Shown: one piece after another, positions 13,592 through 51,566 of the stretch | How positions within the stretch are numbered: position 1 is the stretch's first letter | Layout: every line of letters begins with the position of its first letter | DNA from: Terriglobia bacterium | GTDB lineage: Bacteria > Acidobacteriota > Terriglobia > Bryobacterales > Bryobacteraceae | DNA: 64,000 nt | Assembly (NCBI GenBank): GCA_020073305.1 | Contig: JAIQFK010000013.1 | Location: forward strand, 124,001 to 188,000 | Reading direction: 5' to 3' | The notes under the pieces: generated by a model | What the model was told of the DNA's origin: nothing | The model's database searches: none | What the model saw: the letters and a program-made list of their open reading frames with translations, nothing else | Program-made: the position numbers and the translations under genes

Positions 13592-14860
13592 ATGACCAGT
13601 AGAGAGCGCGTCCTGTCAACGTTGTCGCATCGCGAGCCGGACCGCGTGCCGATCGATTTCGGAAGCACGGGTGTGACCGGTGTCCATGTCAGTTGCATCG
13701 CTGGGCTCCGCGATTATTTCGGACTCGAGAAGAGGCTTGTGAAGGCTCACGAGCCCTATCAGATGCTGGGGATCCTGGACGAGGATCTGAAGCAGGCGAT
13801 GGGCGTGGATGTAGAGGGCGTCTCGCGTCCCAAGACGCTATTCGGCTATCGCAATCGCGATTGGAAGCCGTGGCGCATGCCGGACGGCCTGGAAGTGCTG
13901 GTCTCGGAGGAGTTTCGCGTCACCACCGATGCGAACGGCGATATTCTGATCTACCCGGAGGGCGACATGAGCGCGCCTCCGAGCGGGCGCATGCCGAAGG
14001 ACGGCTACTTCTTCGATACGATCATCCGGCAAGAGCCCATCGTCGAAGAGAAACTAGACCCGCAAGATAATCTTGAAGAGTTCAAGCCGCTGACCGATGC
14101 CGATATCGAGGATCTGCGGCAGGGCGTGAACGAGGCGCAACGGACCGGGCGGGCGGCGATCATGAACGTGGGTGGCACGGCGTTCGGCGATATCGCGCTC
14201 GTACCGGCGCCTTTTCTGAAGCATCCCAAAGGCATCCGCGACGTGGCCGAATGGTACGTTTCCACCAGCAGCCGCCGCGACTACATTCACCAGATCTTCT
14301 CGCGCCAATGCGACATCGCGATTGACAACCTCACGCGGGTGCACCAGGCGATCGGTGACGCGGTGGACGCGATCTTCGTGTGCGGAACGGATTTCGGCAC
14401 GCAGACCTCCGCCTTTTGTTCAGTCAAGACATTCCGGGAGCTGTATTTCCCGTACTACAAGACGTTGAACGGATGGATCCACGAGCACACGACGTGGAAG
14501 ACGTTCAAGCACTCCTGCGGGTCGGTGGAGCGTTTCCTCCAGTCCTTTATTGAAGGCGGTTTCGACATCTTGAATCCTGTGCAATGCTCGGCCACAGGGA
14601 TGGATGCGAGTCATCTGAAAACCACCTATGGCGACCGGGTCACATTCTGGGGCGGCGGAATCGACACGCAGCAGGTGCTGCCGTTCGGCACGCCGGAAGA
14701 GGTGCACACGCAGGTTTTGGAGCGGTGCCGGATCTTCTCGCGGAATGGCGGCTATGTGTTCAACACGATTCACAACGTGCAGGCGCGCACGCCGGTGAAA
14801 AACATTGTGGCCATGCTCGATGCGGTGCATGAGTTCAATGGCTCGCGAGCGGCGATATGA
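13592..14860 (+). CDS. Uroporphyrinogen-decarboxylase-family corrinoid methyltransferase (first copy)
   Basis: A 422-residue UroD-fold protein (MTSRERVLSTLSHREPDRVPIDFG at the start). It is not heme-pathway HemE, because it lacks the HemE N-terminal signature and has the long insert and TFKHSCGSVERF motif of the methyltransferase branch. His and Cys of that HxCG motif are the usual zinc ligands. The third ligand position reads NTIHNVQ, so a His rather than Cys may complete the site. It probably moves a methyl group to or from a corrinoid protein. It overlaps the next gene by 4 bases (ATGA). Confidence 0.82.
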   Translation: MTSRERVLSTLSHREPDRVPIDFGSTGVTGVHVSCIAGLRDYFGLEKRLVKAHEPYQMLGILDEDLKQAMGVDVEGVSRPKTLFGYRNRDWKPWRMPDGLEVLVSEEFRVTTDANGDILIYPEGDMSAPPSGRMPKDGYFFDTIIRQEPIVEEKLDPQDNLEEFKPLTDADIEDLRQGVNEAQRTGRAAIMNVGGTAFGDIALVPAPFLKHPKGIRDVAEWYVSTSSRRDYIHQIFSRQCDIAIDNLTRVHQAIGDAVDAIFVCGTDFGTQTSAFCSVKTFRELYFPYYKTLNGWIHEHTTWKTFKHSCGSVERFLQSFIEGGFDILNPVQCSATGMDASHLKTTYGDRVTFWGGGIDTQQVLPFGTPEEVHTQVLERCRIFSRNGGYVFNTIHNVQARTPVKNIVAMLDAVHEFNGSRAAI

Positions 14861-15726
14861 TCTGGCGTGATTTGGTTTCCAACGGGACGATCCTGACCGA
14901 CGGAGCGTGGGGAACGGAGCTGCAGAAGCGCGGCCTTGGCTTGGGTGAATGCCCCGACGCGTGGAACCTGAGCCATCCGGGAGACGTCGCAGACGTGGCG
15001 GGCCGTTATTGTGACGCAGGCAGCCGCGTGATTCTCACCAACACGTTTCGCGCGAATCCGATCAGTCTAGCGGCGCACGGTCTCGCTGGCTGCGCCGCGG
15101 AAATCAATCGAGCCGGCGTCGAGATTTCGAAAAGAGCGGCGGCGGTAGCGCTGGTATTCGCTTCGATCGGCCCGAGCGGGAAGTTGCTGCCTGCAGGAGA
15201 GGTAACTGAGGACGAGTTACTCGCTGCGTTTCGCGCCCAAGCCGAAGTGCTGGCGGCAGGCGGTGCGGATGCGCTGCTACTCGAGACATTCAGCGACCTC
15301 GACGAAGCGCTGACGGCTTTCAAAGCTGCCCGGGCAACGGGTCTGCCGGTGATCGTCTCCTTCGCATTCGACACCGGCAAGAATAAGGACCGGACTATGA
15401 CCGGCGTGACTCCGGAGCGCGCGGCGAAGGCCATGACCGAAGCCGGGGTGGACGCCGTCGGCGCCAATTGCGGCGTTGGCATCGAGCAGCTTGTAGAGCT
15501 GTGCCGAAGGATGCGGGCGGCAACGCACTTGCCGCTGTGGATGAAGCCCAACGCGGGCATGCCGGAGGTTGTCGACGGCGCCGTCGAGTACCGCGTCACG
15601 GCTCAGCAGTTTGCTTCGTCTGTTCCGTTGCTGCGCGACGCCGGCGCCAGCTTCGTAGGAGGGTGTTGCGGCACCAACCCGGAGTTTATTCGCGCCGCCG
15701 CGGCAGCACTCAGCCGATGCGCCTGA
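14857..15726 (+). CDS. Homocysteine S-methyltransferase family protein
   Basis: A 289-residue stand-alone Hcy-binding TIM barrel, like the first domain of MetH or BHMT. The zinc-thiolate ligands are Cys205 (VGANCG) and Cys270-Cys271 (GGCCGTNPE). The LTNTFRAN and LLLETFSDLDEA segments are also typical. It should activate homocysteine as methyl acceptor. The methyl donor is unknown, but its neighbours are corrinoid methyltransferases, so a methyl-corrinoid donor is the natural inference. It overlaps genes at both ends (4 and 10 bases). Confidence 0.88.
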   Translation: MIWRDLVSNGTILTDGAWGTELQKRGLGLGECPDAWNLSHPGDVADVAGRYCDAGSRVILTNTFRANPISLAAHGLAGCAAEINRAGVEISKRAAAVALVFASIGPSGKLLPAGEVTEDELLAAFRAQAEVLAAGGADALLLETFSDLDEALTAFKAARATGLPVIVSFAFDTGKNKDRTMTGVTPERAAKAMTEAGVDAVGANCGVGIEQLVELCRRMRAATHLPLWMKPNAGMPEVVDGAVEYRVTAQQFASSVPLLRDAGASFVGGCCGTNPEFIRAAAAALSRCA

Positions 15727-16484
15727 AGCTGATCAGTTGCGAAGTCTTGTATCGTGAGATGTGTTTCGCCATCGCGCGGTCTCCTCACCAGGTGGACGTC
15801 GAGTTTCTTCCCAAGGGCTTGCACGACCTCGGCAGCGAGCCGATGCACCGCAGGCTCCAGGAGTGCGTGGATCGCGTGGATGCGCAGCAGTGCGATGCCG
15901 TGCTGATGGGCTATGCGCTCTGCGGCAACGGCCTGGTCGGATTGTGCGCGCGAACGCTGCCCATCGTGATCCCTCGCGCGCACGATTGCATTGCGCTCCT
16001 CATGGGGAACCGCCACAAGTACCAGGCGTATTTCGACGCGAACCCAGGCGTGTATTTCCGGTCGACCGGCTGGCTGGAGCGCGGTGGAAACCTCGAACAG
16101 GTTTTTCGCGATCGGACTGGCGTTGGGCACTCGCTCGAAGAGTTGATCTCGCACTATGGCGAAGACAACGGGCGTTACCTTTACGAGCAGTTGACCAGCT
16201 ACAAACGCACTTACAGGCAACTCGCGTTCATTGAGACCGGACTGGAGCCCGACGGCAGCTTCGAACAACGCGCGCGGGAAGAGGCGCTCCGGAAGGGTTG
16301 GAAGTTCGACAAGGTGTCCGGCAGTCTGACACTGTTCGAGCAGTTGGTATCCGGCAACTGGGCGGACGAGGATTTCCAGATCGTGAAACCGGGCTGGCGC
16401 GTGGCGCCGCGTTACGACGAGAGCATTCTGAGCGTGGAAGAGATTCCCCATGACGGGTCGAGAGAGGGTTCTGGCAGCCATTGA
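15717..16484 (+). CDS. DUF1638 domain protein
   Basis: The 255-residue product matches the DUF1638 family by its opening MRLKLISCEVLYREMCFAIA, the central LMGYALCGNGLVGL and the PRAHDCIALLMGNRHKYQ segment. Family members occur next to corrinoid-dependent methyltransferase genes and RACo-type activases in many bacteria, but no reaction has been assigned. Several conserved Cys and His residues suggest metal or cofactor binding. The ATG at 15717 lies inside the end of the homocysteine methyltransferase gene, and the last 35 bases overlap the next gene. The longer frame to 15468 is a shadow of the upstream gene. Confidence 0.82.
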   Translation: MRLKLISCEVLYREMCFAIARSPHQVDVEFLPKGLHDLGSEPMHRRLQECVDRVDAQQCDAVLMGYALCGNGLVGLCARTLPIVIPRAHDCIALLMGNRHKYQAYFDANPGVYFRSTGWLERGGNLEQVFRDRTGVGHSLEELISHYGEDNGRYLYEQLTSYKRTYRQLAFIETGLEPDGSFEQRAREEALRKGWKFDKVSGSLTLFEQLVSGNWADEDFQIVKPGWRVAPRYDESILSVEEIPHDGSREGSGSH

Positions 16485-17457
16485 AGGGCGGGCAACGGAC
16501 CATCTGGCGTTGATGCCCATCACCATGATGTTCGCCGCGGATGTCGCCGGCGTGCATTACAGGGAGTACGCGACTAATTGCCACGCCATGGCGGATGCCC
16601 AGGTTCGCACGGCCGAGAAGTTCGGGTTTGATTACGTCTCGGGCATTTCGGATCCAGCGCGCGAGGCGAGCGATCTGGGGGCCGCGATCGAGTGGTTCGA
16701 CGACCAGCCGCCCGCGATTATCGAGAGCCGTGCGCTTTTACACGACAAGAGTACGCTGCTCAAGGTGCAGGCGCCGGATCCTTCCAAGGGCCGCATGGGG
16801 GATCGCGTCAAAGCGATTGAATTGCTGGCGGCCCAAGTCGGCAGCGAGAAAATCGTCGAGGGTTGGGTGGAAGGGCCGTGTGCGATGGCGGCGGATCTGC
16901 GTGGCCTGAATACGCTGATGCTCGACTTCTTCGATGATCCCGCGTTCGTGGCAGACCTTTTCGAGTTCGTCACCGGTATGGAGCTGCACTTCGCCCAGGC
17001 GCAGGTGAACGCCGGCGCCTCTCTGATCGGCGTGGGTGATGCGGCGGCTTCGTTGATAGGGCCGAAGCTCTATCAGCAATATGTGTTCCCCTACGAGCGC
17101 CGGCTGATCCAGGGAATTCAGGCCCTGGGCGTCAAGGTGCGCCTGCATATCTGCGGTAGTACCCGCAAACTGTTCAGCGACATGGGAAAGCTGGGGGCCG
17201 ATATCGTTGACCTGGACTGGATGGCGCCGCTTGGCGAAGCCCGCGAGGTCATGGGGCCAACGCAGGTGCTGCTCGGCAACATCGACCCAGTACGCGTGCT
17301 TCGTGAGGGCGATGCGGATTCCGTGGAGCGTGCCATTGGTGACTGCCACCGGGCGGCCGGAGAGCGCTACATCGTGGGGGCCGGTTGCGAAGTCCCGCGG
17401 GGTACACCGCACGAGAATGTGCGAGCCATGGCGCGCTACGCCCAGGAACATCGGTAA
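16450..17457 (+). CDS. MtaA/CmuA-like corrinoid methyltransferase (UroD family, second copy)
   Basis: A 335-residue UroD-fold methyltransferase. The zinc site is complete: His233-x-Cys235 in RLHICGST and Cys313 in VGAGCEVPRGTP, matching the HxC...C pattern of MtaA/MtbA. Those enzymes take the methyl group from a methyl-Co(III) corrinoid protein and pass it to a thiol (coenzyme M in methanogens). Coenzyme M is unlikely here, so homocysteine or another acceptor is inferred. The start lies within the last 35 bases of the DUF1638 gene. Confidence 0.85.
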   Translation: MTGRERVLAAIEGRATDHLALMPITMMFAADVAGVHYREYATNCHAMADAQVRTAEKFGFDYVSGISDPAREASDLGAAIEWFDDQPPAIIESRALLHDKSTLLKVQAPDPSKGRMGDRVKAIELLAAQVGSEKIVEGWVEGPCAMAADLRGLNTLMLDFFDDPAFVADLFEFVTGMELHFAQAQVNAGASLIGVGDAAASLIGPKLYQQYVFPYERRLIQGIQALGVKVRLHICGSTRKLFSDMGKLGADIVDLDWMAPLGEAREVMGPTQVLLGNIDPVRVLREGDADSVERAIGDCHRAAGERYIVGAGCEVPRGTPHENVRAMARYAQEHR

Positions 17458-17459
17458 CC

Positions 17460-18920
17460 ATGCCCCAACTCTGCTCCCTCGATGTGCCCGCCGGGGCGGA
17501 GCTGGCGGATCTCCTTTTTGAGCGAGGAGTCGAGCTTCCCTGCGGGGGTGCGTCCTTGTGCGGAGGCTGCCGCGTTAGGGTTGTCGAAGGCGATATCGCC
17601 GTGACACCGGACATGCAGGCTGTCCTGACGCCTCAAGAGGTCGCGGCGGGATGGCGATTAGCCTGCCAGGCGCGTGCGCGAGGGCGCGTTACGCTCGAGA
17701 TCGAACAGTGGGAAGGCCCCATTCTGGGTGATGAATCCCGGGTGGCATTTGAGGCCCGTGAGGGATTCGGGATTGCAGTCGATCTCGGAACCACGACGAT
17801 CGTCGCGCAACTTTTGGATTTTGCGACGGGTGAGGTTCTCGCCGTCCGCACGGCGCTCAATCCGCAGTGCGCGCATGGCGCCGATGTGATGAGCCGGGTC
17901 CAGTTTGCGCTGCGAGAGCCGCGGGTGCTGACGTGCTCGATCCGGCAAGGGCTTGCCGCTTTGGTTCATGACGTGGCCGGAGATCGCAAAGTCAGCGAAG
18001 TCCTCCTTTGCGGGAACACGGTGATGCATCACTTGTTCTGTGGCGAGGAGGTTGAGCCGCTCTCGCACGTGCCCTTTGAAACTCCGGCTGGAGGCATGCG
18101 AGAGTTTATTGCGGAAGATTTAGGCTGGAAGCTCGGGAGCGCGTGCCGCGTCCGGTTCTTGCCGTGCCTGGGCAGTTTTGTAGGGAGCGACATTCTGGCG
18201 GGCATGGTCGCCCTCGATTGGCTGGCGCGCGACGCGCTCGTGGCTCTCATCGATCTCGGCACGAACGGCGAGATCGTGATCGGAAACCGGCGCGGTGCAC
18301 TGTGCGCCTCGACCGCCGCAGGACCTGCGTTCGAAGCCGGGCGCATCGGCATGGGCATGCGTGCGGCCCCAGGCGCGATCTCGCGTGTAGTTCCGAAAGA
18401 TGGCGGCTTTGAATGCCACGTGCTCGGCGCACGTGCCCCCCGCGGCATTTGCGGAAGCGGGTTGGTGGACGCGGCGGCTGCCGCGCTCCACATGGGCCGC
18501 ATATTGCCAACCGGCAGGCTGGCGAACGGAACGCAGGAGCTAGAGCTTATGCCTCCGGTTTCCATCACGCAGTCCGATATTCGCGAGCTCCAGCTGGCCA
18601 AGGGCGCCATCGCGGCTGGACTGCGCATTTTGCTCGAGCGTTGCGGCGCGACACTCCATCAGCTCGATCGCGTCTACCTGGCCGGCGCCTTCGGAAACTA
18701 CGTCAACACCGCCAGTGCGCGCCGTATCGGCTTGCTCGAACTCGGGCCGGAGAACATCGAGCCGGCGGGCAATACCGCTCTCCGCGGCACGAAGATGTTG
18801 CTGCTCGCTCCGTCGCGCCGTTCGGCCCTGGTAGAGCAGATCGGCCGCCTGACGCAGCATGTATCGCTGGCGTCCGACCCGCATTTCCAGGATGCGTTCG
18901 TGGATTGCATGAGGTTCTAG
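17460..18920 (+). CDS. RACo-type ATP-dependent corrinoid reductive activase (RamA/DUF4445 class)
   Basis: A 486-residue reductive activator of corrinoid proteins. An N-terminal plant-type [2Fe-2S] domain has Cys28, Cys34, Cys37 and Cys69 (LPCGGASLCGGC... RLACQ). It is followed by a linker and an ASKHA ATPase-like domain with GIAVDLGTTTIVAQ, ALIDLGTNGEIVIG and GICGSGLVD. The family rescues accidentally oxidised Co(II) corrinoid back to Co(I) using ATP and electrons. It starts 2 bases after the MtaA-like gene. Its presence shows that this cluster runs through a corrinoid cofactor. Confidence 0.92.
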   Translation: MPQLCSLDVPAGAELADLLFERGVELPCGGASLCGGCRVRVVEGDIAVTPDMQAVLTPQEVAAGWRLACQARARGRVTLEIEQWEGPILGDESRVAFEAREGFGIAVDLGTTTIVAQLLDFATGEVLAVRTALNPQCAHGADVMSRVQFALREPRVLTCSIRQGLAALVHDVAGDRKVSEVLLCGNTVMHHLFCGEEVEPLSHVPFETPAGGMREFIAEDLGWKLGSACRVRFLPCLGSFVGSDILAGMVALDWLARDALVALIDLGTNGEIVIGNRRGALCASTAAGPAFEAGRIGMGMRAAPGAISRVVPKDGGFECHVLGARAPRGICGSGLVDAAAAALHMGRILPTGRLANGTQELELMPPVSITQSDIRELQLAKGAIAAGLRILLERCGATLHQLDRVYLAGAFGNYVNTASARRIGLLELGPENIEPAGNTALRGTKMLLLAPSRRSALVEQIGRLTQHVSLASDPHFQDAFVDCMRF

Positions 18921-18925
18921 CCGTC

Positions 18926-20281
18926 ATGCGCTCGAAGGTTTACTTGATATCAGCAGCCGCCGCTCTTGGTGGTCTGCTGTTTGGATTCGACATTGCGGTC
19001 ATCAACGGCGCCTTGGTCTTCTTGCGCAAGCAGTTTCAACTCTCCGATTTACAGACCGAGGTGGCCGCAAGCAGCCTGCTGCTGGGTTGCGTCTTCGGTG
19101 CAAGCCTCGCTGGAACGCTGAGCGATCGCTTCGGGCGCAAGCGCATTTTGCTGTGGGCGGCCTCACTGTTTCTCGTTTCATCGATCGGCGCGGCACTACC
19201 ACGGAACCTCAGCGAGTTCACGGCGGCCCGGCTCCTGGGTGGTGTCGCCATCGGCATGGAGTCCATGCTGTCGCCGCTGTACGTGGCTGAAATCTCTCCC
19301 GCGCGCATCCGCGGGCGGCTCGTGGCACTCAACCAGCTCGCCATTGTAGTTGGCATTCTGTGCGCCTATCTGATCAGCTGGCTGCTGGCAGGGCTTGGTG
19401 ACGCAAGCTGGCGCTGGATGTTCGCATCGGCCGTGCTGCCATCGTTACTCTTCCTGATCAGTTTCGTGCGCTGTCCGGAAACTCCGCGCTGGCTCATTCA
19501 GAAAGGAGAGATCGCCGAGGCCCGATCGGTGTTGACGCGGGTTGGAACAGATGGCGACATCGATGTCCAAATCCGCGAAATTCAGGAAGCGATCGCGAGC
19601 GAGCAGGGCTCGTTGGCCGAGTTGTTCCAGCCAAGTCTGCGACGCCCGCTCATCATCGCGGTGGCACTGGCGGTTCTTCAGCAAGTAACGGGGATAAACA
19701 CGATCCTGTTTTACGGTTCGCTGATCTTCACTGAAAAAGTCGCCTCCCAGACCGCTGCTTCGGCGCTCTGGGCCAACGTCATGATTGGCTTTGTGAACCT
19801 GGCCTCGACGGTAGTAGCGCTGGCGATCATCGACCGCATCGGGCGCAAGCCTCTCCTGATGCTGGCAGCGGGCGGCATGGCCATCACCGAGTTCTTGTTA
19901 GGCCTCTTATTCTGGCTCGATCCCGGGGCCGCGATCCCGATTCTGTGCCTGGTTCTGGCTTGCGTCGCGTTCTTTGCCGTGGGGCTTGGACCCGGCGTCT
20001 GGGTCATGATGTCGGAGCTGTTTCCGACGCGAATTCGCGGACGCGCTATGTCCATCGCCACCATCAGCCTGTGGATTGCGTGCCTCGCACTGACGTTCAC
20101 GTTCCTATCCCTGGCCCGAGCGATTACCGTTACGGGCGCTTTCTGGACCTATGCGACGATGTGCGTCCTGACTTTTTTGTTCGTTTGGAAGCTCACGCCG
20201 GAGACCAAGGGCAAGACGCTGGAAGAGATCGAGCGGGGATGGGCTTCCCCAAGCGTCACCGTACCCACTACTCCGGTTTAA
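18926..20281 (+). CDS. Sugar-porter family MFS transporter
   Basis: A 451-residue transporter of the sugar porter (SP) branch of the MFS, with twelve predicted membrane spans. Signatures are GGLLFGFDIAVINGAL in helix 1, DRFGRKRIL in loop 2-3, RCPETPRWL after helix 6, IDRIGRKPLL in loop 8-9, and PETKGKTLEEIE at the C-terminus. SP members carry hexoses, pentoses or myo-inositol with protons. It begins 5 bases after the corrinoid activase, so a sugar or polyol is probably the substrate that brings methyl groups into this operon. The longer frame from 18413 is a shadow. Confidence 0.9.
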   Translation: MRSKVYLISAAAALGGLLFGFDIAVINGALVFLRKQFQLSDLQTEVAASSLLLGCVFGASLAGTLSDRFGRKRILLWAASLFLVSSIGAALPRNLSEFTAARLLGGVAIGMESMLSPLYVAEISPARIRGRLVALNQLAIVVGILCAYLISWLLAGLGDASWRWMFASAVLPSLLFLISFVRCPETPRWLIQKGEIAEARSVLTRVGTDGDIDVQIREIQEAIASEQGSLAELFQPSLRRPLIIAVALAVLQQVTGINTILFYGSLIFTEKVASQTAASALWANVMIGFVNLASTVVALAIIDRIGRKPLLMLAAGGMAITEFLLGLLFWLDPGAAIPILCLVLACVAFFAVGLGPGVWVMMSELFPTRIRGRAMSIATISLWIACLALTFTFLSLARAITVTGAFWTYATMCVLTFLFVWKLTPETKGKTLEEIERGWASPSVTVPTTPV

Positions 20282-20305: not shown

Positions 20306-20998
20306 CTACTCCAGGCGGAAGTTGAATGCGACCGTCAGTTGGTTCTCGACCGGCTGTCCGTCCAGTTCCGCGGGTTGATAGCGGCACTTTTTCAAGGCAC
20401 GAATCGCTTCCTGCTCCAGTTCAGGGTGGGCCGCCTGCAATACCACGACATCGCCCACGCTGCCGTCGAGCCTTATCGTTGCAAGCAGGACCACCGGGCC
20501 GTCCAGCCCTCCGGAAGCTGCGGCGGGTGGATAGGCCGGCCGGGGCACTTCCAGCATCTTTGGCGGCTGCACCTTTCCTCCGGCCCGGACTGGCCGCTCC
20601 GCTGCTTTGCTGAGGCGCGATCCAGGTGCACGGGCGGTGCTGATCTGAAACTCTTCAACAACTCTCGCGAGCGGCAACAACGCATACACACGGGCCTGCT
20701 CACCCGACTGCAGATCGACAGTTTGCTGGAAAATTGAGAATAGCGGCTGCTTGATATTGACCTGATACATGCCCGGCCTCAAGTCCGCAAAGGCAAACGC
20801 ACCCGTTTCGCCTGACTTGGTTTCCTGCGTCTTGACGTAGTCCTGCATCAGCATCACGCGGGCACCCGCAACAACACCTCCGGCCGGATCATAGACGGTA
20901 CCCGAGATACCTTGTGCATCGCATGTCCCAACAGCGGCGCATATTGAGAGCCAGGCGGCTGCAACGCAATTGATAACGGTGAATGAAGATTCCAGCAT
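20306..20998 (-). CDS. TonB-type energy transducer with carboxypeptidase-regulatory domain
   Basis: A 230-residue protein with an N-terminal signal/anchor helix. A carboxypeptidase-regulatory-like beta domain follows (GISGTVYDPAGGVVAGARVMLM, about residues 29-110). A TonB C-terminal domain ends the protein (VPRPAYPPAAASGGLDGPVVL through the final strand). The ATG at 20998 is preceded by GAGGTG, so it is preferred to the in-frame ATG at 21019. It follows mtaB by a few bases on the - strand. A periplasmic role linked to outer-membrane uptake is inferred. Confidence 0.8.
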   Translation of the reverse strand: MLESSFTVINCVAAAWLSICAAVGTCDAQGISGTVYDPAGGVVAGARVMLMQDYVKTQETKSGETGAFAFADLRPGMYQVNIKQPLFSIFQQTVDLQSGEQARVYALLPLARVVEEFQISTARAPGSRLSKAAERPVRAGGKVQPPKMLEVPRPAYPPAAASGGLDGPVVLLATIRLDGSVGDVVVLQAAHPELEQEAIRALKKCRYQPAELDGQPVENQLTVAFNFRLE

Positions 20999-21022
20999 GG
21001 AACACCTCGTCTTTCTCATGCG

Positions 21023-22420
21023 CTACGCAGACTCGCAAAGGCCGTAGCTCGCGGGATCGAAAATGCCGGCGTAGCGTTCTTGAACTTGCCGCCGGAGGGT
21101 TTTCTCGTCTCCGGGAAGACCGGACAGCTCCTGTTCGATGCGATCCATCCATTGACGCTCTTTCGCCGGAATCAGCATAGCCCCGCCGGAAAGCCCCCCG
21201 CGTAGAATCGAAAGGGCGGCCTGTGCAGCGCCCAACGTTCGTTCGTAGTGACTCTTGCGCTCGACAATGACGGCCGCAATCTCGAGCGTGGCTTCAGGCG
21301 ATAGCAACGCGGCCTGCGGGCTGAGCCATTGGTCTGAGGCGGTCAGCCAGTCGCGCAGCATGAGAGCACCGCCTTGCTGAGCTGCCACGTTCATGAGGCG
21401 GCAGTCGTATATCAGCGATTCTGTGTAGGCTTCCGGCGCACTGCCCGACAGCAGCCGAATGTTCTGCACCGATTCGTTGCTCCACAGGTCGCACATCGCC
21501 GATGCCACATTGCCCATCGGACTGAAGTGAGCGCAGGTAGCCGACCTGCCTTCCATGGAGATGGGACAGCCGGTGATGGCTTTCAGGATGGGTCCCTCAT
21601 AGGCGCAGTCCTTGGACGGTCCCATCGCGCCATGCTCGAAGGCTACCAGGCTGCGAACCGCGCACATGGCGCGCACAACGGCGGCCAGCACCTCAGGCAG
21701 CATGCGTTGATGCGCCAACTGCATGGCCGTGTTGGCGAAGGCACAGGCCGTATCGCCGCCGGGAACCACGCCAGGATGCCGCGCACAGATGCCAGTGATT
21801 TGATCCCAAAGCCACGCCATATCGCGCGGCGCCAGAATACCAAGCGCGAAAACGATTCCCGGCACGTCACCATAGAGCAGGGCCTGGTCATGGACTTCTT
21901 TACCGCCGATCGACTCAATGGACAGGATGTCCGCGCCGGCCTGGGCACACAGGTCAAAGGAGCGCAGCAGTTGCTCACAACCCTGACCGTAGCGCAGCAA
22001 GGGCGGTTTCCCGTGCTCGCGAATGTCCGTGGGAGTCACGCGCAAAGCGCAGCGCAGGCCGTGTTTCTCATGCGCCTCACGCAGAGCACGGTGCAGCAGG
22101 GCGGTGACTTCCGCTCCCCATTCCGGGCACTCCGTCATGGCCGGGAGAAGCTCGAACTCCAGCACGATTCCGGGCGCCCGGAGCGCGACGGCTCGCCGGA
22201 TGATGCCTGTGACCATCTCCGTGTATTGCGTTACGATCTCACTCCAGTTCTCGGCGGAAACGGTTATGGCGGGGAGCGTAAAATTCACTTCCGGGTAGAC
22301 CTGGCCCGCGCCGATCGTCAAATCGAATCCGCAGGAAACCGGACTGGGCGCACGGCCGAAGACAAGATCGGAGGGATTGGAGATGGCCAGCGCTCCGTAT
22401 GAGCGCATGCGCTGTTCCAT
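21023..22420 (-). CDS. mtaB: Methanol:corrinoid methyltransferase MtaB
   Basis: A 465-residue MtaB homologue, full length. Recalled comparison with Methanosarcina MtaB shows the same ordered motifs: DLVFGRAPSPV near the start, GADILSIESIGGKEV, VPGGDTACAFANTAM, RSLVAFEHGAMGPSKDC, and MEGRSATCAHFSPMGN. The zinc ligands of the characterised enzyme (Glu, Cys, Cys) fall at Glu175, Cys226 and Cys272. MtaB activates methanol and methylates the Co(I) corrinoid of MtaC. An O-methylated polyol substrate cannot be excluded. It begins 12 bases after mtaC with GAGGGA before the ATG. Confidence 0.9.
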   Translation of the reverse strand: MEQRMRSYGALAISNPSDLVFGRAPSPVSCGFDLTIGAGQVYPEVNFTLPAITVSAENWSEIVTQYTEMVTGIIRRAVALRAPGIVLEFELLPAMTECPEWGAEVTALLHRALREAHEKHGLRCALRVTPTDIREHGKPPLLRYGQGCEQLLRSFDLCAQAGADILSIESIGGKEVHDQALLYGDVPGIVFALGILAPRDMAWLWDQITGICARHPGVVPGGDTACAFANTAMQLAHQRMLPEVLAAVVRAMCAVRSLVAFEHGAMGPSKDCAYEGPILKAITGCPISMEGRSATCAHFSPMGNVASAMCDLWSNESVQNIRLLSGSAPEAYTESLIYDCRLMNVAAQQGGALMLRDWLTASDQWLSPQAALLSPEATLEIAAVIVERKSHYERTLGAAQAALSILRGGLSGGAMLIPAKERQWMDRIEQELSGLPGDEKTLRRQVQERYAGIFDPASYGLCESA

Positions 22421-22432
22421 AGATTCCCTCGC

Positions 22433-23071
22433 TCAGAGGGCGGCAATTATCTGCCGGGCGAGCGTCACCGCTCCTGGCGCACTCTCACTGTACCCATCTG
22501 CGCCGATCTGCTGGGCAAATTGGCGTGTCACCGGCGCACCTCCCACCAGTACCTTAACGCGTTCGCGTACGCCGGCCTGTTTCAACGCCTCGATCGTGGT
22601 GCGCATGGAGGGCATGGTCACAGTAAGTAGCGCTGACAGGCAGACGAGATTGGCGTTGGATCGTTGGATTGCCTCAACGAATCTTTCCGGTGCGACATCT
22701 GCGCCCAGATCGATCACGTCGAAGCCGCCGCCTTCCAGCATCGAAGCGACGATGTTTTTGCCGATGTCGTGCAAGTCTCCCTTGACGGTACCGATGACAA
22801 CGCGGCCCGTTGGCTGCCGCCCGCTGGCCGCCAGCAGCGGCCGGATGAGTTCGAGCGACCCCTTCATCGCGCGGGCCGCCAGCAGCAGTTCCGGAACAAA
22901 GTACTCTTCGCATTGGAACAGACGCCCCACCTCGTCCATAGCCGGGATCATGTATTGGCGGATCAGTTCCATCGGGTCGACATTCTCCGCCAGCGCCTCA
23001 CGGGTGACAGCCACCGCCGTCTTTGTATCGCCACTCATGATGGCATCGTGGAGTTTCTGTAGTTCGGCCAT
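22433..23071 (-). CDS. mtaC: Corrinoid protein MtaC (cobalamin-binding)
   Basis: A 212-residue methyl carrier with a four-helix cap domain (residues 1-85) and a Rossmann cobalamin-binding domain. The base-off/His-on motif is DLHDIGKN with His101 as lower Co ligand, followed by LSALLTVT and VLVGGAPVT. Position next to MtaB identifies it as MtaC rather than the related MtbC/MttC carriers. GGAGAGGAA stands before the ATG. It is the only corrinoid-binding protein in the window, so the methyltransferases on the + strand would have to use it or an unlinked carrier. Confidence 0.9.
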   Translation of the reverse strand: MAELQKLHDAIMSGDTKTAVAVTREALAENVDPMELIRQYMIPAMDEVGRLFQCEEYFVPELLLAARAMKGSLELIRPLLAASGRQPTGRVVIGTVKGDLHDIGKNIVASMLEGGGFDVIDLGADVAPERFVEAIQRSNANLVCLSALLTVTMPSMRTTIEALKQAGVRERVKVLVGGAPVTRQFAQQIGADGYSESAPGAVTLARQIIAAL

Positions 23072-23125: not shown

Positions 23126-25315
23126 TCACTTTGGCGCGGAACTCACCACCAGGTCAACTCGCCGCCGGCTCAGTGTGGGCGCCGCACCGCCGTCCGGCTG
23201 CGCAGTCGCCTTCAGCAGACACTTTTCCACTCCCATGGGGGTCATCAGATTCACGAAGTACGTCTGTTGTCCCAACGCCGCCAGCGAGAAGGGAACTGTC
23301 TGCCGCGCGAGGGCCTCCCCAGTTTGATTCTCGATCACGAGCGCGAGGTTGCCGGCGACAGGCCGGTCCTCGTCATTGACCATCATGATCGTGAACATCT
23401 GGTTCGAGCCGGCTTCGAGCGTGGGCTGCCAGAAGTTGAGGTAGACCCCGAGCGGCTGGAACGCCTGCGACAGGTAATCCTCGAAGTGCGGCTCGAGCTC
23501 CAGGCGTTCCAGGTTGCGGAAATGATCGCATGTGAATACGCCCGGACCGCCAGCCGTCAGATACACAAAATGCAGCACGCCCGCATACATCCGGTGCGCT
23601 CTCCAGAACTCCGTCAAGCCCGCCAGCAGGTACGCGTTCAGCGCGAAGCGATCCTCCGCGCTCGCATACGGCCCGAGCAGTTTCTCGTAAACCTCCCCCG
23701 TCAGCGCTGTCGGGCTGCCTGCGCGATTGAGCCACAGCCAGCCATATTCGTTGAGAATCGTGGCATGCCCGGTCGCCGACCCGGTGTCACCGGCCCCGCT
23801 GCGCGATTCCAGTTCCGTCATCTTGAAGTCCCCGCCGCTCGTGATGATGTGATGCTCGTACGGGTGATCCTCCACCGGATCGTCCGCGCCCACGGGGCCG
23901 TTGTAGCTATTCTCCCAGGGGCGGTTCGACAGATCGAGCGGGCGCACGGCGGGAATGATTTTCGCCGCGAAGTCGGGATGCCAGGTCTCGTTGTTCGCGT
24001 CCCAGATGACCACGCTCGGGTGATTCCAGTTGTCGCGCATCCATTCGCCATATTCTGCAATCATCTCGCCCGCATCGACCTGCTTTTCGTAGCCCTTGAA
24101 CCAGTCGTGGCCGAGCCATACGAAATATTCGTTCTGGATCAGCAAGCCGGCTTCGTCGGCGATATCCAGCCAGCGGTCCGGAACGGGTCCGATACAAAAC
24201 CGGAAGCTGCTCCAATGCATCTTCTTCGGAATGTCGATCAGCAGCTTCCGCACCCACGCCTCGTTCCATGGCAGTGTGCCCGATTGCGGATCTTCGAAGA
24301 AGCGGTGCAGGGTGATGTTTGAGCCGCGCATGAAATAGGGCTTGCCGTTGAGATATGCGCGGCGGGTCGGCGTGTCGAAGCGAAATTCGCGCATCCCGAA
24401 GCGGGTAGTGGCGCTGTCGCCGCCGGTGCGGGTCTCGACCACGTAAAGATTCGGGTGCTCGGGAGTCCACAACTTCGCTCCGGGAATGCGAATGGTCTGC
24501 GTGATCGTTTTCTCTTCTGCCGGCTTCAACAAAATCCGGCGGGACTCCGCCCGCGTCAGAGACGCCGCCTGCTTCCACGCGGTCACGTTAAACGCCACCG
24601 CGAACGAGGCCGAAGTCGCGGCGTAATTCCGCACCTTGGCCTCGACCACGATCTCGCTCGTCTGGATTTTTGGCGCCACCTGAACCGACTCGATCGCCGG
24701 GTTATCGCTGAGCTGAAGCGTGACGCTGTCATAAATGCCCGGCGTCCACCGGTTCTTTTCGAAATCGGTGCCGCCACTCACCGTTTCCGGCAGAACGCCG
24801 GGGTGGGCTCCCACCCGCACCAACAGTTCGTTCTTGCCGTCCCAGCGAACCGCATCGGTGATGTTGAAGATCGACGCCGTAAAGCAGCCCCAATGCTCGC
24901 CGATCTTCCTGCCGTTCAGCCATACAGCCGTGCCGAATTGCGCCTTGTTGATCTTCAGAAGCGCAAGCGCGCGTTTCCCGGATGGGACGAAGCTCGTTCG
25001 GTACCAGAAGTAATTCCTGTTCTGATGGGGCACGCCGGCGCCCTTCACCATGGCCGACTCCGGCAATTCGTTCTTGCTGATCCGGTTGGCGATCACCTCT
25101 TGGCTGTCGAACAAATCCACATCCGCGAATGCCGGGGTAGCCGAGTGCGCCAGGCCCGGCACCGGCGCTTTGTGAGTAAAAACGGGTGGTACCTCAGTCG
25201 GAGAAACCGAGTCGGCGATATCCCAGCTGCCGTCCAGAGACATGGTCGTGCGCTCGGCCGCCGCGCACGGCAGGACCACGAGTGACGCCAGAATTGCCGC
25301 CCGCAATTTCCGCAT
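23126..25315 (-). CDS. Secreted glycoside hydrolase family 2 protein
   Basis: A 729-residue exported GH2 enzyme: signal peptide, jelly-roll sugar-binding domain (about 30-205), immunoglobulin-like domain (to about 310) and a TIM barrel. The acid/base Glu is in WDANNET (about residue 450 of the longer frame) and the nucleophile Glu in TILNEYG (about 530). GH2 members are beta-galactosidases, mannosidases or glucuronidases; specificity cannot be read here. The ATG at 25315 is chosen over 25336 because AGGAGGG (25321-25327) precedes it and overlaps the stop of the GH9 gene. It is 54 bases upstream of mtaC. Confidence 0.85.
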   Translation of the reverse strand: MRKLRAAILASLVVLPCAAAERTTMSLDGSWDIADSVSPTEVPPVFTHKAPVPGLAHSATPAFADVDLFDSQEVIANRISKNELPESAMVKGAGVPHQNRNYFWYRTSFVPSGKRALALLKINKAQFGTAVWLNGRKIGEHWGCFTASIFNITDAVRWDGKNELLVRVGAHPGVLPETVSGGTDFEKNRWTPGIYDSVTLQLSDNPAIESVQVAPKIQTSEIVVEAKVRNYAATSASFAVAFNVTAWKQAASLTRAESRRILLKPAEEKTITQTIRIPGAKLWTPEHPNLYVVETRTGGDSATTRFGMREFRFDTPTRRAYLNGKPYFMRGSNITLHRFFEDPQSGTLPWNEAWVRKLLIDIPKKMHWSSFRFCIGPVPDRWLDIADEAGLLIQNEYFVWLGHDWFKGYEKQVDAGEMIAEYGEWMRDNWNHPSVVIWDANNETWHPDFAAKIIPAVRPLDLSNRPWENSYNGPVGADDPVEDHPYEHHIITSGGDFKMTELESRSGAGDTGSATGHATILNEYGWLWLNRAGSPTALTGEVYEKLLGPYASAEDRFALNAYLLAGLTEFWRAHRMYAGVLHFVYLTAGGPGVFTCDHFRNLERLELEPHFEDYLSQAFQPLGVYLNFWQPTLEAGSNQMFTIMMVNDEDRPVAGNLALVIENQTGEALARQTVPFSLAALGQQTYFVNLMTPMGVEKCLLKATAQPDGGAAPTLSRRRVDLVVSSAPK

Positions 25316-25325
25316 AGCTTCCCTC

Positions 25326-27791
25326 CTACTTTTCATTCAGCAGCTTGTTCGCCGCCAGCACATCAAATATGTAAGTGGCCGCTCCGCCAATTACGTATTC
25401 GGTTTGGTACCACAGGAACGGAAATTCCTTGAGTTCCATGTAGTCGGGCTTCACCAGCGATGCTCCCGATATCACACCGCCCGGAATGTGTGACCAGTCC
25501 GCCCGGTTGAATCCGTACGCAATGATGGCAGAGTTCGCGCCCACGCCCGATACATACGATTCGTTACTCCCCGGATGGCAGCCCAACACGAAGTTGACGG
25601 TGGCCAGCAACGGGTCCGCGTCGAACAGCTCCGGCAGATGCTTGTGGAAGTAGTATTGGTGGAGCGCGTCATCCTGCAGGTCCCAGCCGGGCCCCCACAC
25701 GAAGCCCGAGCTGACCTCCGATCGCGTTTCCAGCCGGTAGTCCGGGTTCAATATTCCTTCCTGTAAGTGGACACCATATGGATTGGCGGCCGCGGTCTTC
25801 TCAGCCTGTACTTTCCACTTCTTGGCCAAGTCGCGCACGGTTGACTGGAACTCGCCGTTCGGGACCCGCGCCAGCGCGCGAACCAACGTCCACCCCGGCC
25901 CACTCGCAAACTTCTCGCCGGAAATCTTACGAAGCTCTGGAAGGAGAGCCAGCAGACGGTCGCGGTAACGGCTCTCGCCGGTAGTGAGCAACATTTCCAC
26001 CGACGCCGAGACCTCTTCGCTTCGAAAGCCACTGTCGCTGGGCGCGTATGCGCTCGGGGCATAAACCGGCGCGTGCTCCTGCTCGTAGTCGTAGAGTTTC
26101 CTGGCGGCAGCCTGGCATGCAGAGGCCAGCGTGGCGTTGGACTCGCCCAGCACCCGGCTGGCGGCCGCCAGCGCTTGCACGGTCTCGTATTGCAGGCCGG
26201 TATTGCGGTTCGTGAACACCCATCGGTCGTCGAAAGTTTCTGCTCGCCCGTCCCAAATGCGGTTATCGGTAATGTTTACAGGGTCGCCGAGATGAGAGTA
26301 GGCGTGCGGGGTGCTTTCGATGATGCCGGGAAAGATGTGCCCGCCGACGCGAAACGACGCCAGCAACCCCTCGACTCCGTATTCGATCTGCTGGATAAGA
26401 TCCTGCTTCCCGTCGGGAACGTGCAGCAGGACTTCGCGCTTCGTTCGATTGACCGATGTTTCGTCGAGCTTGGGATGAAACTCTTCCTGCGCCAGTGCCA
26501 GGGCCAGCGTGGTTATGGCAATGCTTCCGGCGGGTAAGTCATGGTCGCCGGCATCGTGCCAGCCTCCCCAATCCAGACCCGGGATGTGCTCGTTATCGGC
26601 AAATCGCGTCTCGCGTTTCCCTTGCTGGTAACTGTCGATGTACACTTTTCCTTCGGGCGCCTGAAGCGCGTCATCCAGGTGACAAGCGCCGTGCCAGGTG
26701 CGATTACCCTCCTTGACGGCCACGTGGCACATTTGCACGGGAAGAAAATACTGCAAGGTGGGTCTCCAGGCGGCGGCATAAATCCCCGCATCAATTGGGA
26801 ACGGCCCTGCCGTCTGCCCTCGGGACTCGATCACGTAAACCCCCGGCTCCCGCACATCGCTGAAATCGAAGACCTCGTACCGGTAACGTAAGAACTGCCC
26901 CCAGGGCCGTGCCACGCCCGATTTCGCAACCTTCTTGCCGCCGTTTAGCTGCATCCGATAAAGCGTGACGGACGCGCCCACGGCGTCGCGGCGATCCAGT
27001 TCCAGGATGGCGCGCTTGGTTTGCGACGGATGATACCCGGCCTCTGAGATTCCGATCACCGCCGGCCGGCGCCACGCGGCGTCGATCGAAGGCGTAATCG
27101 CAACATTTACCTCCGTGTCGCCCGATCCCGGCTTCAGCGGGGCAACGATTTCAAACCAGTCTTCCGGCCCGCCGCGCCGCTCATCCATCAGGACCAAATC
27201 ACCGTCCGAGCGCGTGACGAGCACGCTGCGAAGCGGATCTTCCTGGGCCATCAGCAGACGGTGTGTCGATGGCGCCAGCTGCTCTCCCGTGTATTGCCTG
27301 GGAAAGATTCCCGCGCCTGAATCGCCTTGGAACGATTTCAAAAAGTAGGCGCCAGGGTACACAGCCATGCGAAACCCCGCCGCATCGAACCGGCTCCAGT
27401 CGACCGCCTGGTCCAGCTTGAGAGTAATCAGAATGTGCGCGCCGTCTGTATGGCAGAACAGGCGATAGCCGGCACCGCCCGCGATCTCGCCGAAAACCGT
27501 CGCCGTGGACTTTTCCCGGTCCGCCACCCGCCGCAAGATATGCAACTCGGCTCCGAGCTGTCCGGCCTTCGGAAGCAGGAAAAGGTCGCCCGAGTCCAGC
27601 AGCCGCTCCCCGTTCTGGATCATTTGCAGGCCGCCCTGGTGGCCCACCTGATAGTTGTTATGAAAGACAAGAAACGAAAAGCCCGGCGCCTCGAAGTACT
27701 CCTTTTCGTTCAGACTGATTTTCGTATCGGAGGCGCACACCGCGGGAAGCGCAACGAGCGCCAGCAGGAAGCTGAAAAGTTGTTTCTTCAT
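25326..27791 (-). CDS. Secreted glycoside hydrolase family 9 protein
   Basis: The 821-residue product carries a signal peptide (MKKQLFSFLLALVALPAVCA), about 270 residues of beta-rich N-terminal sequence and a CelD-type Ig module. The GH9 (alpha/alpha)6 catalytic domain follows, with GGWHDAGDHD as the catalytic Asp pair and LGCHPGSNESYVSGVG near the C-terminus. GH9 enzymes cleave beta-1,4-glucans or act as exo-beta-glucosaminidases. The final general-acid Glu is not clearly placed. The ATG at 27791 begins the signal peptide; an extension to 27911 is open but unlike a coding start. The stop overlaps the ribosome-binding site of the GH2 gene. Confidence 0.82.
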   Translation of the reverse strand: MKKQLFSFLLALVALPAVCASDTKISLNEKEYFEAPGFSFLVFHNNYQVGHQGGLQMIQNGERLLDSGDLFLLPKAGQLGAELHILRRVADREKSTATVFGEIAGGAGYRLFCHTDGAHILITLKLDQAVDWSRFDAAGFRMAVYPGAYFLKSFQGDSGAGIFPRQYTGEQLAPSTHRLLMAQEDPLRSVLVTRSDGDLVLMDERRGGPEDWFEIVAPLKPGSGDTEVNVAITPSIDAAWRRPAVIGISEAGYHPSQTKRAILELDRRDAVGASVTLYRMQLNGGKKVAKSGVARPWGQFLRYRYEVFDFSDVREPGVYVIESRGQTAGPFPIDAGIYAAAWRPTLQYFLPVQMCHVAVKEGNRTWHGACHLDDALQAPEGKVYIDSYQQGKRETRFADNEHIPGLDWGGWHDAGDHDLPAGSIAITTLALALAQEEFHPKLDETSVNRTKREVLLHVPDGKQDLIQQIEYGVEGLLASFRVGGHIFPGIIESTPHAYSHLGDPVNITDNRIWDGRAETFDDRWVFTNRNTGLQYETVQALAAASRVLGESNATLASACQAAARKLYDYEQEHAPVYAPSAYAPSDSGFRSEEVSASVEMLLTTGESRYRDRLLALLPELRKISGEKFASGPGWTLVRALARVPNGEFQSTVRDLAKKWKVQAEKTAAANPYGVHLQEGILNPDYRLETRSEVSSGFVWGPGWDLQDDALHQYYFHKHLPELFDADPLLATVNFVLGCHPGSNESYVSGVGANSAIIAYGFNRADWSHIPGGVISGASLVKPDYMELKEFPFLWYQTEYVIGGAATYIFDVLAANKLLNEK

Positions 27792-28017
27792 GAGAGGGAT
27801 CAATTTCTTTCCGCACATTTCATTCCGCAGTGTGACCACTGACGCAGGAGCTGGCAACGCCGTCAAACCGCTTGACTTGAGGCCTCGGTGAGTGACTCTA
27901 CCCGGAATCACGACCGAACCCGGGTGCGTCAGATGCCCCTACCCGTTGTCCGGCGTCTCCTGCGATTGCGGGCGAGGCCCCAACGACACGTGATCGGGAA
28001 TTTAGACGACAAGGATG

Positions 28018-49778: not shown

Positions 49779-51566
49779 TCATTTCCACCCCACCGACCAC
49801 TCCACTCCGCCCACGATTGCCCGGCCGGGCATCACGACGCCGAGGACTTCCTCGTAGTGTGTGCCGGTGATGTTGGTGAGCTGCACAAAGGGCCGCAGCG
49901 CGTGTTCGCCCCATGCGCCATAGATGTCCCAGAGCGCGTACGGATCGCGCGCGCGGCGGTTGAGCGCTCCGATCCGCGTCCGGGCCAGCAGGTGATGGGA
50001 GAAGCTTCCGCGCCATTCCGCGACCGCCGATTGCGACGGGTAGTTGAACACGTACCTCGACATGAGGTCGACGAACTCCGCCTGCGCGCCGTGGATGGCG
50101 GTGTAGCGGAGCGAGAGGGTCTGCCCCGCGGAGATCCGTGTGTCTAGCGACGCCTCAACGCCGGTGAAGTGCAGCCGGTCCACGTTGGTAGCTCGCCAGA
50201 TGTCCGTCGCGGACTGGCGCACATAATCGATGCCGTCGCGTTCCCGGCGATGGAATACAGCCACATCCGCGCGCAGACGGGCAGCCGGAGTCCACTGCGC
50301 GCCTGCTTCATAACTCCATGCGCGTTCGGGCCGCAGATTCGGGCTGCCGACGTTCGCCGGATCGTGATAGTAAAGATCGGTGTAAGTCGGGAGACGAAAC
50401 GCGTGGCTGCCGCTGGCACGCAATTTCAGATGCGAATTGATCCACACGCCGCCGCTGACCGAGGGCGAACTCTCCACCGACAGCCCGCCGTAGACGTTCT
50501 CCCGGATTCCCGCGGCGAAGGAAAAGTGCTTGAGCGCGCGCACGTCGATCGACACGTACCCCGCTCCGTAGTCGCGCTCATGATTGCCCAGATTGTTGCT
50601 TACGATCGCATCGCGATAAAACTCCGCTCCATAGTGGAGCCGGACATTCTCGCGAAGCGTATCGCTGCGGCGCAGCGTGCCCACGTAGCTTTCGACAGCG
50701 TGGTGATTGGTGTAAATTTCCGGCTGATCGCGGAACAGGACAAACAGGTCGCTGTGGCGGCGGAAGGCGAATGAGGCTTCGGTGTCCGGCCCGATGGCCT
50801 GGCGCACGGAAGCGAACCAGGTCTTGGTGTCTTCCCAGGAGTTGAAATTGCCGTAGAACTGGTCGGCGCCGAACGGGCGGTCATCATAGGCCAGCGTCAC
50901 ATCGCTCGCGCCGAGGGCAGAGAGCCAGTGCGTGGAGGAATCTATCGCCAGGTTGCGGTAGTCGCGGTCGGGCCGGAATCCACTCGAAAAATCGCGCGAG
51001 AACGCGATCTGCTCGGCGAGATTGGAGTGGACCAGCGACAGAGAGCCGCGCTCCTGGTTGACCCCGAAATTTCCGGCCGCCGTGCGCAAGCGAAATTCAG
51101 AGGACTCCGGCGGGTCGGTGATGACGTTGATGACGCCTCCCACCGCGTCCGAACCGTACATCGTGGATCCCGAGCCGCGCAGCACTTCCACGCGCGCGAT
51201 CCCTTCCGGCGGCACAGGCACGTCCATATTGTGGTGGCCGGACTGGGCGTCGTTGATGCGGATGCCGTTCAACAGCACCAGGGTCTGGCCGAAACTCGCG
51301 CCGCGGATCGAGACGTCGGATTGCACGCCGTTGGGCGCGCGCTCACCGAGATCGAGCGACGCATCCAGCCGCAATGCATCCATCCAGCTATTCAGGAGCA
51401 GCGCATCCGCGCGAAGCGGTAACACGGTGACCGACCGATCCAGTTCGTCCAGGTTCAGCGGCTCCCAGGTTCCAGTCACCACGATGGAGTCTGACCGGGC
51501 AGGGATTTGCGCCGGGGCGGGGAACGACACCAGTAGCGCGGAGATCAGGATACAGGGAACGCGCAC
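49779..51566 (-). CDS. BtuB-like TonB-dependent receptor
   Basis: A 595-residue outer-membrane receptor of the vitamin B12/siderophore type: signal peptide, plug with VSIRGASFGQTLVLLNGIRIND, VEVLRGSGSTMYGSDAVGGVINVIT, then a 22-strand-type barrel including AFRLPTYTDLYYHDPANVGSPNLRPE. Short length and LDLGERAPNGVQSDVSIRG resemble BtuB more than ferric-siderophore receptors, but cobalamin is a guess. No cobalamin riboswitch was seen upstream; the ftsB gene lies 6 bases before it. Confidence 0.82.
   Translation of the reverse strand: MRVPCILISALLVSFPAPAQIPARSDSIVVTGTWEPLNLDELDRSVTVLPLRADALLLNSWMDALRLDASLDLGERAPNGVQSDVSIRGASFGQTLVLLNGIRINDAQSGHHNMDVPVPPEGIARVEVLRGSGSTMYGSDAVGGVINVITDPPESSEFRLRTAAGNFGVNQERGSLSLVHSNLAEQIAFSRDFSSGFRPDRDYRNLAIDSSTHWLSALGASDVTLAYDDRPFGADQFYGNFNSWEDTKTWFASVRQAIGPDTEASFAFRRHSDLFVLFRDQPEIYTNHHAVESYVGTLRRSDTLRENVRLHYGAEFYRDAIVSNNLGNHERDYGAGYVSIDVRALKHFSFAAGIRENVYGGLSVESSPSVSGGVWINSHLKLRASGSHAFRLPTYTDLYYHDPANVGSPNLRPERAWSYEAGAQWTPAARLRADVAVFHRRERDGIDYVRQSATDIWRATNVDRLHFTGVEASLDTRISAGQTLSLRYTAIHGAQAEFVDLMSRYVFNYPSQSAVAEWRGSFSHHLLARTRIGALNRRARDPYALWDIYGAWGEHALRPFVQLTNITGTHYEEVLGVVMPGRAIVGGVEWSVGWK

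Follow-up and report, generated by a model that had tools for sequence, protein, structure and literature searches.

The 64,000-nucleotide stretch of a Terriglobia bacterium genome analysed here (Bryobacteraceae; contig JAIQFK010000013.1, positions 124,001 to 188,000; hereafter the window) encodes a methanol:corrinoid methyltransferase-like protein, MtaB, and a corrinoid protein, MtaC, close to a gene run with a stand-alone homocysteine S-methyltransferase (HMT), a DUF1638 protein, a RACo-type reductive activator and two URO-D family proteins (one MtaA-like, the other named UROD1). We consider it an even proposition that MtaB, MtaC and HMT together carry the methyl group of methanol to homocysteine and so make methionine without folate, a route for which we infer the substrates, the direction of flow, the acceptor and the choice of partners. 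Coordinates are positions in the window, and residue numbers refer to the window proteins unless another protein is named.

In the favoured scheme, MtaB would bind methanol at its zinc site and methylate MtaC at its cob(I)amide, and HMT would move the methyl group from methyl-MtaC to homocysteine, yielding methionine without folate. The activator, probably with the DUF1638 protein, would return oxidised MtaC to the Co(I) state. Both URO-D proteins would be further methyltransferases acting on the same MtaC, either bringing in methyl groups from other compounds (perhaps methoxylated, sugar-like ones) or serving a second acceptor, and MtaB would be a plug-in donor enzyme. We advance only tentatively the broader proposal of a methanol:homocysteine methyltransferase fed by plant-derived methanol and built as a swappable hub, in which MtaB, URO-D proteins and others would dock on a single MtaC and DUF1638 would bind metal and partner the activator. 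Besides Acidobacteriota, such hubs would occur in Verrucomicrobiota, Armatimonadota and Rhodothermota at the least.

MtaB matches PF12176 over almost the whole Pfam model (532.3 bits for a cut-off of 25, positions 3-460 of 460) and keeps the zinc-site motifs of M. barkeri MtaB, so that the family assignment of an earlier note on this DNA holds, as does its placement of the mtaB-mtaC pair at exactly 21023-23071. The gene is single-copy, being the sole one with a PF12176-type match in a search of the genome. Sequence comparison found a single solved relative, M. barkeri MtaB (2i2x chain A, E 2e-94). Identity between the two proteins is 38% overall (170 of 450 aligned positions) and 65% (33 of 51) for residues no more than eight positions away from one of the three zinc ligands, as expected for enzymes acting on the same small substrate. 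The zinc ligands of 2i2x, which we take to be E164, C220 and C269, share alignment columns with E169, C226 and C272 of the window protein, and E175 shares the column of M. barkeri E170. The earlier note had named Glu175, Cys226 and Cys272: both cysteines stand, and Glu175 is probably a conserved neighbour of the third ligand. Since all four columns are invariant among 82 sequences, the alignment alone cannot choose between E169 and E175; going by the ligands assumed for 2i2x, the zinc-site glutamate is probably E169 rather than E175. In a quick tree, built without characterised acetogen MtaB proteins and showing no starred clade that encloses the protein from the window, the nearest rows by path are acidobacterial and M. 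barkeri sits on a very long branch. A position outside MtaB together with other zinc ligands, which the earlier note had regarded as fatal to its assignment, was not found, as the ligands are those of the M. barkeri enzyme.

Recognition of MtaC from DLHDIGKN is likewise borne out by a GDLHDIGKN motif and both B12-binding domains. Its gene precedes mtaB on the minus strand, with 12 nt between them. The best solved relative of MtaC is 1y80 (E 1e-60), presumably a Moorella protein, and M. barkeri MtaC (2i2x chain B, E 1e-25) comes second. Scores for the methanogen MtaC equivalogs NF040655 and NF040669 (124.3 and 129.7 bits) lie below the cut-offs of 420 and 450. Only two proteins of the genome carry the corrinoid cap domain: MtaC and MetH.

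The earlier note saw no acetyl-CoA pathway genes in view and concluded that the methyl group must serve another purpose. For CdhC-family acetyl-CoA synthase, the one pathway component searched for, its observation extends to the whole genome (no match at 99.89% completeness). On the absence of CdhC alone, Wood-Ljungdahl use of the methyl group was rejected for this genome. Another use is supported by what the note overlooked nearby, namely HMT, DUF1638, RACo and the two URO-D proteins. HMT matches PF02574 (224.6 bits), and its C205, C270 and C271, presumably zinc-binding, align with T. maritima MetH (1q7m). We favour methionine as the product because, of the acceptor-side enzymes at hand, HMT alone belongs to a family with an assigned acceptor. 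In the activator, the four cysteines of the ferredoxin domain are conserved in at least 97% of 37 sequences. In the DUF1638 protein, the invariant three cysteines and two histidines suggest a metal or Fe-S site; for its confident predicted model (pLDDT 86), Foldseek finds no PDB structure at E ≤0.001, and the best VIA-align hits, to LacI/periplasmic-binding folds, reach a Z of 6.9, within the common background of the tool. The mtaA_cmuA model (cut-off 235.4 bits) gives 170.5 bits to the MtaA-like protein and 42.8 bits to UROD1, whose best PDB fold match is nevertheless MtaA (4ay8, E 1e-11, TM 0.56-0.68). Aligned by eye, UROD1 has H307, C309 and H394, with a histidine in place of the third MtaA cysteine; UROD1 may therefore be a donor-side enzyme.

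The main alternative destination is folate: the MtaA-like URO-D protein would transfer the methyl group from MtaB-MtaC to tetrahydrofolate, to be oxidised or used in serine synthesis, and HMT would be a side branch. We regard this as unlikely, although the operon does hold an MtaA-like protein with an intact zinc triad. Besides MetH, no methyl-corrinoid:folate methyltransferase of the MtrH type was found in the genome, where Pterin_bind occurs in DHPS and MetH only, in 25 of the 26 MtaB genomes of the survey described below, or in 81 MtaB loci (searched with a small home-made profile that had no acetogen positive control). In 20 of these 26 genomes there are no more than two pterin-binding matches, DHPS and MetH to judge from score and open-frame length; six have a third, which groups with the methyl-folate:corrinoid type only in G056 and with DHPS in the other five (one being a 60-residue piece). 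We take the acetogen MtaA1 to be of this MtrH type. According to the available text of the acetogen study, methanol does feed folate in these bacteria, but the enzyme for that step is the 29.7 kDa MtaA1, and an earlier candidate, MtaA4, is strongly down on methanol (PMC13391211).

The methionine reading gains support from the distribution of the genes among 257 genomes of the order. MtaB occurs in 26 of them (with partial matches in G044 and G143, and in two pieces in G205), DUF1638 in 76, RACo in 96 and MtaC orthologues (≥59% identity) in 80. DUF1638 and MtaC occur jointly in 71 genomes, that is, in 71 of 76 and 71 of 80, respectively. Genomes with MtaB more often have MtaC orthologues (22 of 26, versus 58 of the 231 without MtaB), DUF1638 (20 of 26 versus 56 of 231) and RACo (23 of 26 versus 73 of 231). 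Among the matches listed, which extend to E 1.7e-59, a stand-alone HMT (an open frame of less than 450 aa) was found in at least 19 of the 26 MtaB genomes (the G002 copy has an internal stop) and in at least 16 of 21 module genomes without MtaB, versus at least 2 of 19 controls.

The usual gene order in relatives is UROD1-MtaC-(MFS)-HMT-DUF1638-MtaA-RACo. In 40 regions (38 picked via DUF1638 and two via MtaC or RACo, several ending at contig ends), MtaC is present in 30, MtaA in 28, RACo in 27, HMT in 25 and UROD1 in 15; HMT was counted above 35% identity, and the copies of L253 and L254, 42-44% identical, lie on the opposite strand. A sugar porter 51-57% identical to that of the window belongs to the module in three of the 40 regions. 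MtaC is present in just 4 of 25 MtaB regions of relatives. Because 58 genomes carry MtaC without MtaB and most operon-bearing relatives have no MtaB, MtaB is an optional add-on to the operon, and the window layout, with mtaC beside mtaB and outside the operon, is one of several arrangements.

Beyond the order, we compared 81 MtaB loci including that of the window, with flanks of up to 8 kb that are often shorter; 22 of the 80 named loci lie on contigs equal in length to ones of the 257-genome survey, and the two sets are thus not independent. The simple open reading frame callers used for the neighbour sets miss genes, among them the window's own HMT in the 81-locus set. HMT lies near MtaB in five of the 80 relatives' loci, from four phyla (L149, L209, L212 and L213 are outside Acidobacteriota). 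L149, from Verrucomicrobiota, reads MtaA-UROD1-MtaB-DUF1638-RACo-HMT, and mtaC is not on its 8.7 kb contig; L174, from Acidobacteriota, unites MtaA, MtaC, MtaB, DUF1638, RACo and UROD1 without HMT. In four of the 80 (L150, L181, L196 and L208), a core-MetE-like protein (Meth_synt_2) near mtaB is possibly another methionine-forming end.

Several observations weigh against the methionine reading. MtaB scores 437.6 bits against the methanogen MtaB equivalog NF040651, under the cut-off of 720, so that methanol is presumed as its substrate on the strength of family membership and zinc motifs. With the complete zinc triad of enzymes that methylate thiols, the MtaA-like protein could carry out the acceptor step in place of HMT. 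A close MtaC is wanting in four of the 26 MtaB genomes; G056, G204 and G205 have no stand-alone HMT among the matches listed, and G107, G129, G221 and G229 may have one beyond those matches. Fisher values for the survey ignore shared ancestry, the related genomes not being independent, and many genomes are incomplete. Across the 81 loci, MtaC accompanies MtaB in 41, RACo in 17, DUF1638 in 14 (weakly in L165) and HMT in five plus the window: the linkage of MtaB to the module is real but loose. Finally, a full-length MetH is present in the genome, and an extra methionine route is therefore unnecessary for growth; rather than supplying most of the methionine, the module may serve for scavenging or detoxification.

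The genes of the module and their neighbours are listed in the table. Every junction among the six plus-strand genes (13592-20281) is an overlap or a gap of at most 5 nt, and 742 nt separate the end of this run from the end of mtaB; such spacing, our only evidence on this point, suggests co-transcription of the closely spaced genes. No Rfam RNA was found across the window at gathering thresholds, hence no cobalamin riboswitch. Elsewhere in the window, a TonB-dependent receptor with Plug and barrel domains (49779-51566) resembles the B12-receptor type by eye.

Features of the mtaCB locus and the plus-strand gene run (window positions)
Feature	Position	Strand	Remarks
UROD1, URO-D family protein	13592..14860	+	start moved from GTG 13415 to ATG 13592; best PDB fold match MtaA 4ay8
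HMT, stand-alone homocysteine S-methyltransferase (PF02574)	14857..15726	+	Cys205, 270 and 271 invariant in 30 sequences
DUF1638 protein	15717..16484	+	C8, C69, C91, H36 and H89 invariant in 43 sequences
MtaA-like URO-D methyltransferase	16450..17457	+	H233, C235 and C313 (H-x-C...C triad) invariant in 29 sequences
RACo/RamA-type reductive activator	17460..18920	+	2Fe-2S Fer2, RACo middle and C-terminal domains
Sugar-porter MFS transporter	18926..20281	+	final gene of the plus-strand run
TonB C-terminal / carboxypeptidase-regulatory domain protein	20306..21019	-	3 nt after mtaB
mtaB, methanol:corrinoid methyltransferase-like (PF12176)	21023..22420	-	465 aa; aligned zinc ligands E169, C226, C272
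mtaC, corrinoid protein	22433..23071	-	212 aa; B12-binding_2 and B12-binding domains, GDLHDIGKN
GH2 glycoside hydrolase	23126..25336	-	54 nt upstream of mtaC
GH9 family protein	25326..27911	-	overlaps GH2 gene by 11 nt; start uncertain: GTG 27911, ATG 27818 or 27791

The earlier note placed the pair among sugar-degradation genes, which is correct but incomplete, as the module genes at 13592-18920 were missed. These carbohydrate neighbours raise the question of whether MtaB is in fact a demethylase of sugar methyl ethers or methyl esters, transferring the methyl group of an O-methyl sugar released by the glycan operon to MtaC. GH9 and GH2 genes precede mtaCB in the window, the plus-strand operon closes with a sugar porter, mtaB in relatives lies beside GH2, fucosidase or galactokinase genes or is coupled to an FCD/GntR regulator, and a PF01095 pectin methylesterase, which could release methanol, is absent from this genome. 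We nonetheless find this explanation doubtful, given the higher identity to the methanol enzyme around the zinc site than overall and the fact that the carbohydrate neighbours vary between relatives. Pectinesterase occurs in 8 of the 26 MtaB genomes versus 40 of 231 (p 0.08, a weak enrichment), which speaks neither for nor against methanol from pectin; a pectin methylesterase of its own was set aside as the methanol source of this genome.

Apart from mtaC and an FCD regulator present in 7 of 25 loci, clustering of mtaB neighbours revealed no single conserved partner. This FCD/GntR-type regulator is the gene immediately upstream of mtaB in L035 (16193-16951), L037, L046, L047, L050 and L054 and of mtaC-mtaB in L038, with a 4-nt overlap in several; the Pfam check covered the L035 copy. 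DUF4172-Fic proteins adjoin mtaB in two relatives (L035, 18455-19567; L037, 5056-6291). L190 (9458-11791) and nine other Ignavibacteria/Bacteroidota loci share a protein of about 777 aa in the vicinity of mtaB; its identification as an alpha-glucuronidase, a source of 4-O-methylglucuronate, was rejected, the L190 copy having no Pfam family. Another recurrent neighbour, of about 263 aa, lies beside MtaB in L203 (9380-10171), L199, L201, L206, L211 and L213, and the copy in L203 is similar to Met_synt_B12, the activation domain of MetH.

Acidobacteriota are common in soil and peat. By the available account from Stordalen Mire, they encode and express mtaB in bog and fen, where methanogens also use methanol; acetate or CO2 is weighed as the product, and acceptor or partner genes are not described in that account (PMC10805028). 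An MtaB-MtaC pair alone is thus not new in this phylum. The wiring with HMT, DUF1638 and URO-D proteins is new as far as literature searches show: no description of it was found in the open literature searched, a scope outside which most subscription journals fall. Should the methyl group indeed end up in methionine and not in acetate or CO2, Acidobacteriota would act as an assimilatory sink for methanol without feeding methanogens, and the module would show MetH-like chemistry running on donors other than folate. DUF1638 would also gain a second testable context: in Phaeobacter, B12-dependent methionine synthesis needs DUF1638, for which the accessible text proposes no mechanism (PMC5764234).

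Among known systems, the type 1 mlp clusters share with the window URO-D methyltransferases, a corrinoid protein, a Ram/RACE protein and, in the portion of the paper at our disposal, the lack of a folate methyltransferase (PMC10418091). The module could accordingly be a thiol or methyl-sulfur salvage system of this kind whose corrinoid protein is borrowed by MtaB, which we judge quite improbable. The window has HMT, DUF1638 and MtaB in addition; the main text of that paper mentions neither DUF1638 nor HMT and contains 'homocysteine' once, and the available text defines type 1 clusters by Mlp2 and Mlp3 (PMC10418091), whereas UROD1 is far from MtaA by its mtaA_cmuA score. M. barkeri MtaABC (2i2x) has in common with the window the MtaB family and zinc motifs, MtaC and an MtaA-like URO-D protein, but the window MtaB and MtaC fall outside the methanogen equivalogs, and HMT, DUF1638 and a RACo-type activator are added. 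Acetogen MtaABC (Moorella and Acetobacterium), as far as described in the available text (PMC13391211), shares MtaB and MtaC; the window genome differs in having neither the folate methyltransferase partner nor CdhC acetyl-CoA synthase. MesA-MesC are also folate-independent methionine synthases, probably drawing on corrinoid proteins according to the text available (PMC7857596), but HMT belongs to a different protein family.

The split methionine synthase MtgCDE of alphaproteobacteria, as known from parts of the two reports, comes with a separate corrinoid protein, HMT, a DUF4445/RACo activator, DUF1638 and a separate donor methyltransferase. In Phaeobacter, genetic evidence shows that DUF1638 and a RamA-like protein are required with a three-part MetH (PMC5764234); in Ruegeria, MtgD and the corrinoid protein MtgC function in the demethylation of betaine as well as in methionine synthesis, and DUF1638 and RamA-like proteins rose on betaine and related N-osmolytes (PMC12478193). 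This genome has the three-cysteine stand-alone HMT and the activator with DUF1638 that characterise this type and differs from it in lacking the separate pterin module (MtgD), whose side would fall to MtaB and perhaps the URO-D proteins as donor enzymes, in keeping a full MetH, in its two additional URO-D proteins and in MtaB taking the place of MtgB.
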